From IMG/VR virus record IMGVR_UViG_3300032893_000032, positions 1-64,000 of that record: a DNA stretch of 64,000 bases. One strand, 5' to 3'. Made by a program: the position numbers and the translations under genes. Under the pieces are notes generated by a model, which saw only the letters and a program-made list of their open reading frames with translations, was not told the origin of the DNA and did no database searches. Source of the stretch: a virus. Shown piece after piece: positions 24,797 through 31,400 of this stretch (the first letter of the stretch is position 1; each line of letters begins with the position of its first letter).

Positions 24797-25621
24797 ATGA
24801 ACTACATGGGTGGGAAATTTCGACAGGGGAAGAAGATCGCAGAGGTGGTGGCGAGACTGTCGGCGGGCGGGGGGAGATTGTATTACGAACCGTTCTGCGG
24901 GGCAATGGGGTCGGCTTATCAAGTACTGGACCGCTGTGGCGTGAATTTAGCCGGAAGCCGCCTATCGGATGTATCCTCTCCCTTAATAACAATGTGGACG
25001 GCGGTCTTGAACGGATGGGAACCTCCTGACCAAGTCACCGAGGAGTTTTATGACTACGTGAAGTTGATCCAAGACCCCGACGACCCTATTACGGCTTTTG
25101 TTGGCTTCGGACTCTCCTTCGGCGGGAAGTATTTCGGAACATTCGCTCGATCCAAGCCCGGAAAGAAGCCGCACGGGCACGACGCGGGGTGCGCGAAGAG
25201 GTCGTGTAAGAGACGCGCCTCCGTTCTATCAAAACACGGGGCGAAGGTCTATTGCTGTGACTACCGGGAAGTTATAGACTCCGGCCAGATCTTTTACCTT
25301 GATCCCCCGTACCACCCCGGAAAAGGGAGGAATAAGTGCCACGACTTCGCCGGGGGGTTCGACACCCAGGAGTTCTTCGAGTACGCCCGGATGCTGGTGG
25401 CGCTGGGCAACCGAGTGATAGTGACGGGATTCGATGCCCCAGACGACTGGCGGGTGATCCATTCTTGGGGCGACACGGTAGTCCGCCACTACGCCGGGAA
25501 GGGGTCGGATGGGACCTGTGAGTCGATCTACGCCCATGTGTCGCAGGTGGAGGACGGGACGTTCGACGCCTACCTGCATACGAAGGCGGAGGGAAAGGAG
25601 GCTGTCGCCCGTGCCCGTTAG
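24797..25621 (+). CDS. DNA N6-adenine methyltransferase (Dam / D12 class)
   Basis: 274 aa. N-terminal 'MNYMGGKFRQGKKIAE' and 'RLYYEPFCGAMGSAY' (residues 28-41) correspond to the AdoMet-binding motif I of D12-class enzymes, and DPPY (169-172, in FYLDPPYHPG) is the catalytic motif IV. A Cys/His-containing insert (HDAGCAKRSCKRRA, about 128-141) is unusual. It transfers a methyl group to N6 of adenine, or here probably of 2-aminoadenine if the genome is Z-substituted. Its end overlaps the helicase start. Modification protects against host restriction; recognition site unknown. Confidence 0.88.
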   Translation: MNYMGGKFRQGKKIAEVVARLSAGGGRLYYEPFCGAMGSAYQVLDRCGVNLAGSRLSDVSSPLITMWTAVLNGWEPPDQVTEEFYDYVKLIQDPDDPITAFVGFGLSFGGKYFGTFARSKPGKKPHGHDAGCAKRSCKRRASVLSKHGAKVYCCDYREVIDSGQIFYLDPPYHPGKGRNKCHDFAGGFDTQEFFEYARMLVALGNRVIVTGFDAPDDWRVIHSWGDTVVRHYAGKGSDGTCESIYAHVSQVEDGTFDAYLHTKAEGKEAVARAR

Positions 25622-28181
25622 CCTGCGCCATTCGAAGGTTGACCTTCCCTCCCCCGTCTGTTTCGGCATTCCCCAGAAGTTCGCCGACTGGCGGGGGATA
25701 CAGGCGCAGGCTATCTCCGCCTCCCTAGCCAGCCAGAAGAGGTTCGTGTTCCAGTCCGCCCCTACTGGGACGGGGAAGAGCCTGATGTACGTAGCCGAAG
25801 CCCTGATGACTGGACAGAGGACCGTTATCCTGACGTCGACCAAGGGGCTACAATCGCAGCTGGTGGGGGACTTCCAGGAGTCCGGACTGGTAGACATCCG
25901 GGGGATGGGGAACTATCCATGTAAGGCGGCGGAGGACTTCGGGCTAACGGCTGGGGCTACGTCCCATGCCATCTCGTGTGAAGAGGGGCCGTGCCGCTCG
26001 GGACTTAAGTGTTCGCTAAAAGACTTCGGCTGTTCCTACTACGATGCCTACCGAGTGGCCCAGGGGGCGGGACTGGTGGTTACTAATTACGCCTACTGGA
26101 TGACGATTAACAAGTATGGCGAGGGACTGGGGCACTTCGACCTGCTGGTGATGGACGAAGGCCACAATTGTGTTGTAGCGGGGACGGACGTGGGCGGCAC
26201 CCCCATAGAAAAAATAGAGGTGGGGGATTGGGTGCCATCGTGTTGGCGCGGCTGCATAATTTATAGACGTGTTGTACAGACCTTCCGAAGCCGACCAACA
26301 CACCTATTAAGGCTGTGGTGCAACGGACGGCCCACAATTTGTACGGAAAATCACCCAGTCCTGACGCACCGGGGATGGGTATCAGCGGGAACACTACGAA
26401 TTGGCGACCTTATAAGGAGCACTCAGAATGAAGAGAACCTTGTACCCCAAGAGAGTGGAGACGAAATGTCACTGGTGTCACGGCCCGGCGGTAGTGGAAG
26501 GAAGCAGGCGATGCTGGGAGTGGCGAAAGAGCGGGAGGGCATACTGCTCGGAGACGTGCGCCCAATCCTACCGGAACAAAGTGACAACGGAGCGAGGGCA
26601 GCCGTTGCACGTACGTCTGTTCCACTCCAAAAGGATCAAAGGGAAGAACAACCCAATGAAGTCGGCGTCTGCGCGACAGAAACTGAGTCGGACGCTAAAA
26701 GCAAATGGAGTGAAGCCGCCAATTCGAGGAGGGTTTGGGAGTCCGACGCCGAAACCGCAACTGATACTAGCCAAAGCGCTGGATTGGCCGTTAGAAGTAG
26801 TGGTACCGACCGGACCACGAAGGCCGGGGAAACCGACCAACTACAAGATAGACATTGCAAGTGCGGAACACAAAATCGCAGTGGAAGTAGACGGCAAAAG
26901 CCACGGGATGTTGGATCGTCAACGCGCCGACCGAGTGAAGGAGAAGTTCTTGGCTGGACGCGGCTGGACGGTGTTGAGGTTCTCAAACCAACAAGTGATG
27001 GAGAATTTGGAGGACTGTGTCCGGGCGGTTATGTCTATAACCTCGAAGTCGAAGATACCCACAACTATATCGCCAACGGCATAGTCATGCACAATAGCCC
27101 CGACGAGCTGTCCAATTTTCTGGCGGTGGAGATGGAGATGGGGGAACTGGAGACTGTGCTGGGGGACGCGGGGGTAGGGGTAGGAACGAAGCTTGGAGAC
27201 TGGCAGAAGTGGGCTGCGGGACACGCCAGCCGATTGGCGGAGAAGATCGACCGGGCGCAGGCGGAAATGGAAGAGGCAAGGGAAAACGGGTCGGGAAGGG
27301 TAGGGTACGGACGGCTGAAGGTCCTTACCCAGTGGAAAAAGGTCAGCGGACGTCTGAAGTCTATCCTGGGAGCGAAAGGGGAGTGGGTGTATGAGAGACA
27401 GGGAAGGACGCACAGGTTCGACCCGGTGTGGCCGGGGGAGTACGCCGAGGGAGCGTTGTTTAGAGGAATTAAGAAAGTGGCTGTCTTCTCTGCCACGCTT
27501 AGACCGAAGACGGCTGAGGTCCTGGGCGTCCGACGAGAGGAAATGGAGTTCCTTGACTGGCCGTCTCCGTTCCCTGTAAGCAGGCGACCTATCTACCACG
27601 TCCCGACCGTGCAGATGAATCACCGGACGGCGAAGGATGGAGACAGCTTAAGAAGATGGATGACGAGGATAGATCAGATCCTGAGGCAGAGGCAGGACCG
27701 GAAGGGGATTGTCCACTGCGTAAGCTATGAAAGGAGGAACTACATACTGCAGAACTCGGAATTCGCCGGATCGATGATCAGCCACGACAGCCGGGGAACG
27801 AGGCTGGCGGTGGAGAAGTACAAGAAAGCGGAGGCACCGGCTGTTCTAGTGTCGCCATCGGTGGGTACGGGTTTCGATTTTCCCGGCAGCGAATGTCGCT
27901 TTATCATCATTGGGAAGCTTCCGTACCCGGACCTACGGTCAGAAATAATGAAAGTAAGGAGGAAGCGGGACGGGACGTACTACGACTACTTAGTCGCCCA
28001 GAACTTCGTCCAGATGGCGGGAAGAGGGATGAGGTCGGAAGACGACTGGTGCGAGGTACTGGTGATAGATGACAATTGCCTGTGGCACGTGTACCGGTAC
28101 AAGTCGTTCTACCCCACGTGGTTCATGGACAGCTTCCAACCTAAAAACGCTATTCCTCCCCCTTTAGGGCTAGATACTTGA
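25611..28181 (+). CDS. DinG/XPD-like superfamily 2 helicase interrupted by an intein
   Basis: Start taken at GTG 25611: AAGGAG ten bases upstream and overlap with the methyltransferase end; the 34 codons before it are a shadow. The precursor is 856 aa, 547 after splicing. Motif I is PTGTGKS (51-57). A Cys-rich segment follows (NYPCKAA, ISCEEGPCRSGLKC, FGCSYY), placed like the Fe-S domain of XPD/DinG. Motif II is MDEGHN, interrupted by the intein (residues 187-495) right after Asn and resumed by SPDEL. Later motifs are 'VAVFSATLRP', 'GIVHCVSYERR', 'LVSPSVGTGFDFPG' and 'NFVQMAGRGMRSEDD' (QxxGRxxR). A 5'-3' helicase role in recombination or replication is likely. Splicing is needed to rebuild the DEAH-type box region. 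Confidence 0.9.
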   Translation: MPVSLRHSKVDLPSPVCFGIPQKFADWRGIQAQAISASLASQKRFVFQSAPTGTGKSLMYVAEALMTGQRTVILTSTKGLQSQLVGDFQESGLVDIRGMGNYPCKAAEDFGLTAGATSHAISCEEGPCRSGLKCSLKDFGCSYYDAYRVAQGAGLVVTNYAYWMTINKYGEGLGHFDLLVMDEGHNCVVAGTDVGGTPIEKIEVGDWVPSCWRGCIIYRRVVQTFRSRPTHLLRLWCNGRPTICTENHPVLTHRGWVSAGTLRIGDLIRSTQNEENLVPQESGDEMSLVSRPGGSGRKQAMLGVAKEREGILLGDVRPILPEQSDNGARAAVARTSVPLQKDQREEQPNEVGVCATETESDAKSKWSEAANSRRVWESDAETATDTSQSAGLAVRSSGTDRTTKAGETDQLQDRHCKCGTQNRSGSRRQKPRDVGSSTRRPSEGEVLGWTRLDGVEVLKPTSDGEFGGLCPGGYVYNLEVEDTHNYIANGIVMHNSPDELSNFLAVEMEMGELETVLGDAGVGVGTKLGDWQKWAAGHASRLAEKIDRAQAEMEEARENGSGRVGYGRLKVLTQWKKVSGRLKSILGAKGEWVYERQGRTHRFDPVWPGEYAEGALFRGIKKVAVFSATLRPKTAEVLGVRREEMEFLDWPSPFPVSRRPIYHVPTVQMNHRTAKDGDSLRRWMTRIDQILRQRQDRKGIVHCVSYERRNYILQNSEFAGSMISHDSRGTRLAVEKYKKAEAPAVLVSPSVGTGFDFPGSECRFIIIGKLPYPDLRSEIMKVRRKRDGTYYDYLVAQNFVQMAGRGMRSEDDWCEVLVIDDNCLWHVYRYKSFYPTWFMDSFQPKNAIPPPLGLDT
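26169..27095 (+). mobile_element. Intein in the helicase DEGH box, with an overlapping endonuclease gene
   Basis: 309 residues: Cys1 (block A CVVAGTDVGGTPIEKIEVGDW), block B 'CTENHPVLTHRGW', block F 'YNLEVEDTHNYIANGIVMHN', +1 Ser. All splice residues are present. Between about 26420 and 27030 the intein-frame translation is an Arg/Ser/Gly/Glu mixture without protein character, because the real coding there is a +1-frame endonuclease gene (separate entry). The intein frame stays open throughout, so precursor translation and endonuclease translation can both occur. Confidence 0.9.
26428..27084 (+). CDS. Homing endonuclease nested out of frame within the intein (EDxHD/Vsr-like)
   Basis: 218 aa in the +1 frame relative to the helicase, wholly inside the intein, with its own ribosome site AAGGAG and ATG 26428. 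N-terminus has a Cys4 zinc knuckle (CHWC at 14-17, YCSETC at 39-44). A NUMOD3-like segment 'GKNNPMKSASARQKLSRTLK' (72-91) suggests DNA recognition. The C-terminus has the Vsr/DUF559-like nuclease core: YKIDIAS (D142), 'IAVEVDGKSHGMLDRQRAD' (E153, D155, H159, D163) and 'GWTVLRFSNQQV'. Such EDxHD enzymes were described with fractured genes and split inteins. Here the endonuclease overlaps an unsplit intein. It would cut intein-free alleles of the helicase gene. Confidence 0.85.
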   Translation: MKRTLYPKRVETKCHWCHGPAVVEGSRRCWEWRKSGRAYCSETCAQSYRNKVTTERGQPLHVRLFHSKRIKGKNNPMKSASARQKLSRTLKANGVKPPIRGGFGSPTPKPQLILAKALDWPLEVVVPTGPRRPGKPTNYKIDIASAEHKIAVEVDGKSHGMLDRQRADRVKEKFLAGRGWTVLRFSNQQVMENLEDCVRAVMSITSKSKIPTTISPTA

Positions 28182-28213
28182 CAGTCGGGCCGGATCAGTA
28201 GGAGCAGCAAAAA

Positions 28214-28504
28214 ATGCCGTTTAGACCGTGGAGAAACAGTAAAAAGAGAATAGCGGAGCGCAACAAACGTATAATAAGAGAATTCAAAAACGTACCGTGC
28301 GCCGATTGTAGGAAGAGGTACCCCTTCTACGTCATGGACTTCGATCACGTACGGGGTAAAAAGGAGTGTGGTATAGCAAATTTTGTAACCCGTAAGGGTT
28401 GCTCCGTAGAGAAGTTGTTGGAGGAAATCGCAAAGTGTGATGTAGTGTGTGCCAACTGCCACCGGAAAAGAACGCATAAGAGAAGCTCGGGACTATATAC
28501 TTGA
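28214..28504 (+). CDS. Small HNH endonuclease, freestanding
   Basis: 96 aa. Pattern 'VPCADCRKRYPFYVMDFDHVRG', then 'IANFV', then 'KCDVVCANCHRKRTHKR' is the short HNH family frequent in phages (two CxxC knuckles, central DFDHV, final NCHR). The DNA is AT-richer than neighbours. It is flanked by two copies of a -35-like block, TACTTGACAG at 28175 and TACTTGACGG at 28498. It seems inserted at the promoter of the downstream gene. GGAG nine bases before ATG. Confidence 0.85.
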   Translation: MPFRPWRNSKKRIAERNKRIIREFKNVPCADCRKRYPFYVMDFDHVRGKKECGIANFVTRKGCSVEKLLEEIAKCDVVCANCHRKRTHKRSSGLYT

Positions 28505-28530
28505 CGGGCTGGTCATGTGCGTGGTATCCT
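28501..28530 (+). promoter_or_regulatory. Rightward promoter after the HNH gene
   Basis: TTGACG (28501-28506), 18-base spacer ending GTGG, TATCCT (28525-28530). Overlaps the last codon of the HNH gene. A -35-like TTGACA at 28178-28183 before the HNH gene has no matching -10. Confidence 0.65.
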
Positions 28531-28611
28531 TGCCGTGGCTGGTAGGTAAGCAGGAGAGCAAGGCGGCGTCGGGACCACCTGACAGCCGATTTCGAAAGGA
28601 GACAGGACAAA

Positions 28612-29427
28612 ATGGCAGGACAAAAGGAAACTGGAACAGGAATTAGCATTCGGCCCGACGCATTCAAACATGGCGGCGGTCTGATCAATGACGTGGACGC
28701 CCTCATCAAGCAGGCGCGGTGGGGATACTCCGATTTCAACGGCAAGGCCCCCAACACCCTGGTGGCGCACCTGACCTACGAGTACGAGGACGCGGACGGG
28801 GCGAAGCTGGAGGAAGAAGGGCTATACAGCTGCGGGAAGAAGGGGAGCGAGAACTTCACTCCGTCGAAGGACGGAAAGACCCTGCAGCAAGTCGGCGGGG
28901 AAAGCCAGCTGTCCGACGGGTGCAACTTCTTCACCTTCATCTCGAGCGTGGTGAATGCCGGATACCCGACGGACCAGATCGAGGGATCGGACATCTCCTT
29001 CCTCGACGGGTTGAAGGTTCACCTGTTGCGGGAGAAGCAGCCGGAGCGGTCGGGGATTGCGAAGCGGGAAGACGGGAGAGAGTCGACCGTCCTCTGCATT
29101 TCGAAGATCTACAACCTTCCGGGCCAGGCTGGGACGAAAGCGGCTGGGAAGGGAGCCAGCGCACCGGCGGCGGCCAAAGGTGGAAAGGCCAATGGAGCGG
29201 CGGCTGGATCGGCGGATGTCGAGTCGGCTGCGGTCGATGCCGTGCTGGATGTGCTGGGAGACGCCGGAGGGACGCTGCAGAAGAAGGAGATCAGCCAGAA
29301 ACTGTTCGCCTCCCTCAAGGGAAAGCCGATGCAGAAGGAGATTATCCAGATGGCCTTCCGCGACGAATTTCTATCGGCAGAAGGCCGCCCCTGGACGTTC
29401 GCCGACAATACCGTTTCGCTGGGCTAG
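28612..29427 (+). CDS. Phage DNA-metabolism protein of unknown function (ssDNA-binding candidate)
   Basis: 271 aa with AAGGAG before ATG 28612. The N-terminal about 170 residues ('TLVAHLTYEYEDADG', 'QLSDGCNFFTFISSVVNAG', 'ISFLDGLKVHLLREKQPER') form a beta-rich domain that resembles small phage proteins encoded next to RecB-like nucleases and Sak4-type ATPases. An Ala/Gly/Lys linker follows. The last 60 residues look like a winged helix ('AVLDVLGDAGGTLQKKEISQKL'). ssDNA binding is a guess from context. It is a one-gene unit between promoter 28501 and a terminator. Confidence 0.65.
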   Translation: MAGQKETGTGISIRPDAFKHGGGLINDVDALIKQARWGYSDFNGKAPNTLVAHLTYEYEDADGAKLEEEGLYSCGKKGSENFTPSKDGKTLQQVGGESQLSDGCNFFTFISSVVNAGYPTDQIEGSDISFLDGLKVHLLREKQPERSGIAKREDGRESTVLCISKIYNLPGQAGTKAAGKGASAPAAAKGGKANGAAAGSADVESAAVDAVLDVLGDAGGTLQKKEISQKLFASLKGKPMQKEIIQMAFRDEFLSAEGRPWTFADNTVSLG

Positions 29428-29596: not shown

Positions 29597-30196
29597 ATGG
29601 TAGTGACGGAAGTACAATTCGACCCCAGACAGATCCTGGGACCGGCGGACACGGACAAGCACCTTGCCCCCCGATCCAAGGGCCTGCACCTGTCGCAGAT
29701 CTACGACGACCTACAGCAGTCGGCAAGGGGTATGGTCATCGGCCAGGACAAGTTGACGAGTGAGGAATTGCAGTGGTACCGCAGCGTCGGATATGTATGG
29801 GAGAGGGTGGTGGACGATGCCTTCGCCAAATGTCTGCTGTCGCCTAATTGCGTACGACTGGGAGAGGTAACGGTCGACGGAATAACGGGGTCGCCGGATC
29901 TCGTGGACCTGTCGTCGGACGACTGGGTCGTGGTGGATACAAAAGCAACATTCAAATCGTCGCGGAAGCTGGACGATCTGGAGAAGAACTTCTGGACGTG
30001 GACGGTGCAGCTGAAGGGGTACTGCTACATGGTGAAGGCGACCCGAGCGCGGCTGCTGGTAATGCATATCTGTGGTAACTATGCGCCGCCCCGACCGATA
30101 GTGAAGCAGTTGGAACTGGAATTCACGCAGGAAGAGCTACAGCAGAACTGGAACGTCCTTGTGGCTCATGCCCGCCGGAGGAAATGGTTAAAATGA
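29597..30196 (+). CDS. RecB/Cas4-like PD-(D/E)XK nuclease
   Basis: 199 aa. Catalytic pattern: Glu69 in 'GYVWERVVDDAF', Asp101 in 'GSPDLVDL', Asp114-Thr-Lys116 in 'VVVDTKATF', and Gln138/Tyr142 in 'VQLKGYCYM', the order of RecB-family nucleases. Phage relatives act as 5'-3' exonucleases in recombination, typically with Sak4-type ATPase and ssDNA-binding partners, both candidates for which are nearby (31419, 28612). The stop overlaps the NADAR gene as ATGA. No clear promoter follows the upstream terminator, so read-through may be needed. Confidence 0.85.
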   Translation: MVVTEVQFDPRQILGPADTDKHLAPRSKGLHLSQIYDDLQQSARGMVIGQDKLTSEELQWYRSVGYVWERVVDDAFAKCLLSPNCVRLGEVTVDGITGSPDLVDLSSDDWVVVDTKATFKSSRKLDDLEKNFWTWTVQLKGYCYMVKATRARLLVMHICGNYAPPRPIVKQLELEFTQEELQQNWNVLVAHARRRKWLK

Positions 30197-30630
30197 CGGA
30201 CGGCACACGCATTACCCATTTCGACGGCCCGTACAATTTCCTGTCGAACTTCTATCGGGTAGATATCGAATTTGAAGGGGTGGTATACCCGTCCGTAGAG
30301 CACGCCTATCAGGCGGCTAAGACGCTGGATACGGGGGAGCGTATCAGGATCGCCCAACTCCCTAGCCCGGCTGCCGCCAAGAAAGCGGGGAGGAAGGTGG
30401 AGCTACGGCCCCACTGGGACGCGATGCGGATAGACGTGATGCATGAACTCCTACGCCGGAAGTTCTACCTCGGCGACGGCCTGAGGGAGCGGCTGCTGGC
30501 CACCGGGAACGCCACCCTAGTGGAAGGGAACTGGTGGGGGGATAACTTCTGGGGGTCATGCCCACCTAATGGGCGTGGTGCTAACAACCTAGGAAAGCTC
30601 CTAATGAAGGTAAGAGAGGAATTAAAATGA
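30193..30630 (+). CDS. NADAR-domain protein (YbiA/RibX-like N-glycosidase)
   Basis: 145 aa from ATG 30193 (ATGA overlap; GGAGG is too close to ATG 30184 to serve it). Shows the family's motifs: 'GPYNFLSNFY' (12-21), 'YPSVEHAYQAAK' (32-43) and 'WWGDNFWGSCP...NNLGKLLM'. NADAR proteins hydrolyse N-glycosidic bonds; some members remove ADP-ribose from guanine in nucleic acids, others act on riboflavin intermediates. In a phage it could reverse DarT-type ADP-ribosylation or serve nucleotide salvage. All core residues appear intact. Confidence 0.88.
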   Translation: MTDGTRITHFDGPYNFLSNFYRVDIEFEGVVYPSVEHAYQAAKTLDTGERIRIAQLPSPAAAKKAGRKVELRPHWDAMRIDVMHELLRRKFYLGDGLRERLLATGNATLVEGNWWGDNFWGSCPPNGRGANNLGKLLMKVREELK

Positions 30631-31400
30631 AGATTATTAGGCCGTATGCCCGAATCACTTCTGACTCCCACGCCCATATTCCACTAAACGGGATGCGGCA
30701 TATTGAGTGGTGCGCCCGTATTTCCCACCGTTCGGAGGACGCCCAGTCACAAGACTCCTGGCGGCGGCTGATCCAGTCGGTGGTGTTGGAGCACGGGGAC
30801 TGGTCGGTGGTGGAGCATGTCAGCGTGACTGTTGACGCGGTGGTCGACCGGGGAATAACACACGAGTGGGTGAGACACCGGCTATTCTCGTATACGCAAG
30901 AGTCAACGAGGTTCGTGAACTACGAGAAGAAGATGGCACCGAGTTTCATTTACCCGAAGCCGGAGGTAGAGTGCCTTCTGTGCATGAACGGTCACGAACT
31001 CCGCCACGACTACAAAAATCCTTATGGTGTGTGGTGGCACAGCGATGTCAGTTTACGGACACCGGAAGAATGCGCTAATCGGAACTGCGCGTATGATCCG
31101 CGTTGGCTAAATGCGATTAATGAGGCGGAAACTTCCTACATCTCACTTGTCAAAAATGGGTGGAGGCCACAGGAGGCCCGGTCCGTCTTCCCTAACGCTC
31201 TCGCCTCCCGCCTAGTCACCACCGGCAACCTCCGCAACTGGCGACACTTTTTCATCATGCGGACCACCGCCGAGGCCCACCCGCAGATGCGGCAGGTAAC
31301 CATTCCGCTGCTGGCGGAGTTCAAGTCCAAGTTCCCGCTGATCTTCGACGACATCGAACCAACGGCGAAACAATCGGAATCCATGAAAAGGATGCGGTAG
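30627..31400 (+). CDS. thyX: Flavin-dependent thymidylate synthase with a Cys4 insert
   Basis: 257 aa, ATGA overlap with the NADAR gene. The ThyX motif RHRxxxxxxxS is 'RHRLFSYTQES' (83-93). C-terminal 'NALASRLVTTGNLRNWRHFF...AHPQMRQV' is the conserved substrate-binding region. The enzyme makes dTMP from dUMP with FAD and methylene-tetrahydrofolate. Between residues 112 and 155 lies an insert with CLLC (116-119) and CANRNC (149-154), placed like a zinc knuckle, absent from typical ThyX. The gene belongs to the nucleotide-supply part of the cluster. Confidence 0.93.
   Translation: MKIIRPYARITSDSHAHIPLNGMRHIEWCARISHRSEDAQSQDSWRRLIQSVVLEHGDWSVVEHVSVTVDAVVDRGITHEWVRHRLFSYTQESTRFVNYEKKMAPSFIYPKPEVECLLCMNGHELRHDYKNPYGVWWHSDVSLRTPEECANRNCAYDPRWLNAINEAETSYISLVKNGWRPQEARSVFPNALASRLVTTGNLRNWRHFFIMRTTAEAHPQMRQVTIPLLAEFKSKFPLIFDDIEPTAKQSESMKRMR

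Follow-up and report, generated by a model that had tools for sequence, protein, structure and literature searches.

Homing endonucleases of the EDxHD type are known from group I introns, as free-standing genes, or between the halves of split inteins. The last of these arrangements was reportedly described in 2009 by Dassa and colleagues for fractured phage replication genes, in which an EDxHD-type nuclease lies between the N- and C-terminal splicing halves. The enzymes themselves have been treated elsewhere (PMC3943268). In canonical inteins, such as PI-SceI, the nuclease is in frame, belongs to the same chain as the splicing domain and is usually of the LAGLIDADG type; the conserved placement of in-frame nucleases within inteins has been discussed (PMC6801210). 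A different case is the ShiLan domain, an insertion without a splicing domain that carries an HNH nuclease out of frame while the host frame stays open; this nuclease is read in the third frame and has no detectable Shine-Dalgarno sequence (PMC11855218, 2025). Beside a statement on overlapping frames, the same paper cites Gosselin, Arsenault and Gogarten (2025) and Gorbalenya (1998). In our search of the literature for nucleases that lie out of frame in inteins or overlap them, the ShiLan work was the only report found, and the preprint by Gosselin and colleagues may overlap with the subject. The preprint is said to concern actinobacteriophage inteins with a 'non-canonical architecture', and the work of Gorbalenya reportedly bears the title 'Non-canonical inteins'; judged by these titles and by the citing sentence, both may describe something similar to the element presented here.

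This element was found in a stretch of viral DNA of 64,000 nucleotides (the window), which belongs to an IMG/VR virus record of 71.7 kb. It is very probably a dual-frame mobile element, in which a class-1 intein located at motif II of a phage helicase carries its homing endonuclease in the +1 frame, as an overprinted gene of its own. With the canonical inteins it has in common the Hint fold and a nuclease region placed between the N and C splicing halves, but its nuclease is in the +1 frame. With the ShiLan domain it shares an out-of-frame nuclease within an insertion that is open in the host frame; however, the window holds a genuine intein, and the nuclease is of the EDxHD type, lies in +1 and has a Shine-Dalgarno sequence. 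In contrast with the fractured genes, the intein chain is unbroken in the window, as in the other nested families described below, and the nuclease overlaps it in another frame.

The host helicase and the intein

The helicase is encoded in frame 0 from 25611 to 28181 and this frame is open to 28181; its start is probably the GTG at 25611, which is preceded by AAGGAGG. The intein interrupts the protein at motif II (DEGHN^S), so that the N-extein ends in ...LLVMDEGHN and the C-extein begins with SPDELSN... (Table 1). When the exteins of the window are joined, they align without a gap at this junction with two intein-free phage helicases (L264 and L265). These are distant proteins, used for the comparison because a scan with the C-extein gave no close empty allele of the window helicase; no viral relative of the C-extein was obtained by the single-sequence scan.

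The intein frame has no stop in its 309 codons and all the residues of a class-1 intein are present, i.e., C1, T59xxH62, H308, N309 and a +1 Ser; C1, T59, H62 and N309 are invariant among 36 intein relatives. AlphaFold predicted for this frame a confident Hint domain, formed by residues 1-88 and about 260-309, with a disordered loop of ~170 residues between them, and Foldseek matched the predicted fold to the Mtu RecA and Npu DnaB inteins (E about 1e-5). The residues, the predicted Hint fold and the precise insertion site identify the element as a class-1 intein, which would be expected to splice.

Other kinds of element were ruled out for the window. A canonical bifunctional intein is incompatible with a nuclease in +1 and with an in-frame linker that is predicted to be disordered and in which no Pfam domain was detected, i.e., the endonuclease is not in the frame of the splicing domain. 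A group I or group II intron was discarded because no Rfam match was obtained at E<=1 over positions 25000-29000 and frame 0 is open throughout, and a fractured gene with a split intein because the intein frame has no stop. Finally, a hidden HNH insertion of the ShiLan type was discarded because the window has a DUF559 domain instead of HNH, plus a splicing domain.

Table 1. Positions of the features of the helicase locus in the window, and of the HNH_3 nucleases in terminase inteins.
Feature	Positions	Strand	Basis or remarks
N-extein, superfamily-2 (Rad3/DinG-like) helicase	25611..26168	+	Pfam DEAD/ResIII; PHROG 2488 DNA helicase
Intein, 309 aa, predicted class-1	26169..27095	+	Pfam PF14890 Intein_splicing E=1.7e-9; catalytic residues; Hint fold
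N-terminal splicing half, residues 1-88	26169..26432	+	AF2 pLDDT about 95-98; mainly single-frame reading
Shine-Dalgarno of the nuclease, TAAGGAG	26413..26419	+	sequence; 8 nt spacing to ATG 26428
Putative EDxHD/Vsr-like (DUF559) homing endonuclease, 218 aa, +1 frame	26428..27084, stop included	+	Pfam PF04480 E=2.5e-13
Intein-frame linker, residues 89-259, predicted disordered	26433..26945	+	pLDDT about 43-51; DNA is the body of the nuclease gene
Cys4 zinc-ribbon-like segment (C14, C17, C40, C44)	26467..26559	+	alignment: C17 invariant, C14 nearly invariant
Catalytic domain of the nuclease, conserved D142, E153, D155, H159, D168	26752..27051	+	residue conservation and fold match
C-terminal splicing half, blocks F/G, residues 260-309	26946..27095	+	pLDDT 86-98
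C-extein of the helicase	27096..28181, stop included	+	Pfam Helicase_C_2 E=2.2e-13
HNH_3 in the +2 frame, terminase inteins	L009:2817-3461; L275:2498-3172; L276, L280, L281-L288, L290-L295		host frame open

The nuclease in the +1 frame

The +1 frame is open from 26416 to 27081 and ends with a stop at 27082-27084; upstream it is closed by the TAA at 26413-26415, which lies inside the Shine-Dalgarno motif. The C-terminal splicing half shares its DNA with the C-terminus of the nuclease up to 27084. Among 42 nuclease relatives there is no variation at residues D142, D155, H159 and D168, and almost none at E153. An AlphaFold2 model based on the alignment of these relatives reached a pLDDT of 88.9, and its best PDB matches in Foldseek were 3hrl (Vsr-like) and 3r3p (I-Bth0305I), both with prob 1.00 but with E-values of only 0.012-0.027 (TMt 0.65 against 3r3p). 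Sequence-profile comparison gave E=1.4e-9 for 3hrl, and only 0.12 for 3r3p. The window nuclease and the EDxHD homing endonucleases (I-Bth0305I; Vsr/DUF559 fold) have in common the DUF559 domain, the fold, matched to the I-Bth0305I catalytic domain 3r3p and to 3hrl, the D..E.D..H..D residues and DNA-binding-like segments at the N-terminus; the difference is the overprinting within an intact intein. Given its Vsr-like predicted fold and these residues, the protein is assigned to the EDxHD type, and it may cleave DNA in a site-specific manner.

An earlier note on this DNA had described an intein frame open over 309 codons with its splice residues, and nested in it a 218-aa Vsr/EDxHD-like nuclease in +1 with its own Shine-Dalgarno and ATG, a stop 11 bases before the end of the intein (27084 versus 27095) and a C-terminus overlapping blocks F/G; this description is confirmed by the features of Table 1. 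The note had also ascribed zinc and NUMOD3-like parts to the nuclease. The first is visible as the zinc-ribbon-like N-terminus, whereas the second label is weak because the NUMOD3 match (E=0.15) is below the Pfam cut-off.

Distribution and phase of the nested nucleases

Profile-based scans of viral contigs and genomes, in which the loci were classified automatically with HMMs of the intein halves and the nuclease, revealed 178 nested loci (some contigs entered twice). These form 119 families when clustered at 80% amino acid identity, with GC contents from 25 to 68%. The nested nuclease is in the +1 phase in all 178 loci and 119 clusters, and none of them has an EDxHD nuclease in frame or in +2. 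The nested set includes the isolate phages CP-T1, phi673 (Corynebacterium) and MR14 (Pseudomonas); in these, as well as in Vibrio 1.088.O, 159E43-1b and the metagenomic contig L001, frame 0 is open through the insert and the nuclease is in +1. In the nested phage records that were inspected, the annotation covers the helicase or terminase only. A tblastn search of phage records, from which the five phages named above were taken, gave 44 matches; for the 40 listed, the annotation of the CDS is helicase, P-loop NTPase, coiled-coil or hypothetical protein. The same search of plasmids gave partial matches only, mostly to stand-alone DUF559 proteins.

The insertions affect a wide range of helicases and ATPases; most lie at DE^C of motif II, and in a few members the position is shifted to DEAH^C, DEAHHA^C or DEGHN^S. 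The point of insertion moves by a few codons within motif II in L045, L078, L103, L118, L135 and the window (26160-26170), and this shift would imply a drifting target specificity.

Proposed translation of the nuclease

In the proposed mechanism, frame 0 would be translated as helicase-intein-helicase, and the Hint halves would fold around a long disordered loop, which results from reading the nuclease DNA out of its own frame; the intein would then splice out to give an intact helicase. Ribosomes would also restart on this mRNA, at the internal Shine-Dalgarno and ATG just past the N-terminal splicing half, and produce a free EDxHD/Vsr-type nuclease. This enzyme would cleave helicase genes that lack the intein, either at the insertion site or close to it, and the whole element would be copied during repair of the cut.

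A Shine-Dalgarno sequence of at least four matched bases precedes the nuclease start in 71% of the members, versus 23% in a control formed by +1-frame ATG or GTG codons elsewhere within the same genes; for at least six matched bases the values are 22% and 1%. This enrichment favours internal initiation over frameshifting. Initiation may vary, given that no Shine-Dalgarno is recognisable in 25 of the 90 representatives and no clear start in 3/90. These 28 cases, together with a phase that is always +1 as in known +1 frameshifts, would be expected if a programmed +1 frameshift from the intein frame produced the nuclease fused to the N-terminal splicing half. Nevertheless, common descent with a locked C-terminal overlap explains the fixed phase equally well, in many members the +1 frame is closed by a stop shortly upstream of the nuclease start (in the window, 12 nt upstream of the ATG), and start codons bearing a Shine-Dalgarno are enriched 3-fold, or about 20-fold for six or more bases. 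Frameshifting is therefore unlikely, and internal initiation is favoured, although not proven, as the origin of the nuclease.

Selection on the two frames

The nuclease was recoded with synonymous codons at the usage of the host gene, and the stops appearing in the intein frame were counted. Across 90 families this frame has no stops, against 816.5 expected, and the third frame, used as a control, has 1044. For the window alone 6.3 stops were expected and none is present; none of 400 recodings was free of stops. Selection in the family keeps frame 0 stop-free across the nuclease gene.

Since the window lacks a close relative, the codon-position test was carried out on ten pairs of relatives. 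In the N half the substitutions peak at position 3 of the intein codons (299/525), and in the linker at position 3 of the nuclease codons (717/1270); the last ~46 codons show a divergence of 8.9%, versus 22.9% in the linker, and no codon-position bias. This pattern indicates that the N half is constrained as intein, that the linker is constrained as nuclease while the intein frame is merely kept open, and that the end is truly dual-coding, with constraint acting on both frames over these last ~46 codons in the relatives. In the family, selection preserves both products over the stretch that the nuclease C-terminus shares with blocks F/G. Regarding the distances between nucleases, they correlate with those of the host gene (r=0.50) more than with those of the intein N half (r=0.33), suggesting that parts may also be exchanged.

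Homing nucleases decay cyclically, and the ORF of the window could be the remnant of a dead nuclease in an intein that is no longer mobile. A loss of this kind is seen in the 142-aa mini-intein of L002 (5739-6164), which lacks the nuclease but whose overlap segment (TSDGTFGGLCPGGYVYNLEV) has remained almost the same as that of the window. However, the window retains all the conserved catalytic residues and a confidently predicted fold, and purifying selection acts on the nuclease frame of the relatives, which makes a dead enzyme quite improbable.

Fractured and free forms

The layout reported for the fractured genes is found exactly in L119 and L186-L195, where the N ORF ends after the N splicing half and is followed by a free nuclease and then by the C half. 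There are 15-35 stops between the halves, the +1 relation is kept and, as in the nested forms, the end of the nuclease still overlaps the C splicing half; in L119 (2963-5242) and L186 (2939-5158) the C ORF restarts at its own ATG inside the nuclease gene. In the nuclease tree the fractured forms are one clade (SH-aLRT 99) that branches among nested lineages, so the nested form looks ancestral and stable, not transient. The simplest reading is that the nested form came first and that the fractured, mini and free forms are derived; given that the deep branches of the tree are weakly supported, this order is a preference and not a proof.

The existence of fractured forms in the same family would also fit a passing intermediate, i.e., a recent entry of a free nuclease gene into a mini-intein, with a frame that happens to be open and an in-frame or split form still to come. 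The earlier note had proposed an intermediate or a new arrangement. The idea of an intermediate has to be abandoned as highly improbable, and the element is not a lone oddity either: the +1 state is kept without a single stop, and under selection against stops in the intein frame, across 119 diverged families that include genomes of 25% GC. The search of homologous inteins for split, in-frame or overlapping nucleases, which the note had suggested, yielded these 119 overlapping families, one fractured clade and no in-frame form. An architecture present in more than 100 distinct relatives points to a stable design rather than to an error or a transient state. Of the two findings that the note named as able to overturn its reading, the first, a +1 frame not conserved among relatives, was checked and the frame proved to be conserved, and the second, a single-base sequencing error, is excluded because the arrangement recurs across 119 families and in the genomes of isolate phages. 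An artefact, in which a frameshift from sequencing or assembly had disrupted an ordinary in-frame intein nuclease, has a negligible probability: every one of the 119 families, as well as the isolate phages sequenced independently, would have to contain two compensating errors.

Two other arrangements were observed. In L111 (3471-4076) and L215 (3358-3999) a free nuclease of the family lies directly upstream of an intein-free helicase and overlaps its start; these nucleases may act by intron-less homing on the adjoining gene. L016 (5357-5962) has an HNH nuclease between intein halves and many stops in the host frame, i.e., a fractured form with an HNH enzyme.

HNH_3 nucleases in terminase inteins

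A second class of nested nucleases was found in the inteins of phage large terminases, where HNH_3 enzymes occupy the +2 frame, e.g., in L008/L009, Acinetobacter phage Highwayman, Tetrasphaera phage TJE1 and others (Table 1). The phase bearing the nuclease is open in 23 of 26 loci, with 0 stops versus 6-27 in the other phase, and in nine loci 0 stops were found against 22.7 expected. The two classes differ in nuclease, host gene and phase, which speaks for an independent origin of this one, unrelated to the EDxHD class.

Considering both classes (EDxHD in +1 of helicases, HNH_3 in +2 of large terminases), we lean towards the view that overprinting is a general and repeatedly evolved lifestyle of homing endonucleases in inteins, and that these dual-coding elements are widespread, unannotated and stable, and ancestral to fractured genes and natural split inteins through stops arising in the disordered linker. 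In such elements the two jobs of the intein would be separated into two proteins without separating the DNA, which would explain how a free nuclease gene could colonise an intein without breaking it, and would offer a concrete path from whole inteins to split inteins, valuable tools in protein engineering. Surveys limited to in-frame nucleases would call these inteins nuclease-free and miss many homing enzymes. The families also provide a large and well-replicated set for the study of overlapping genes.

Neighbouring genes

Right after the helicase, a small ORF (28214-28504) shows an HNH-like pattern, CADC...DFDHV...CANCHRKR, with no Pfam match at 1e-3. Further downstream, at 30184-31400, a NADAR-domain gene overlaps the start of a ThyX (Thy1) gene.
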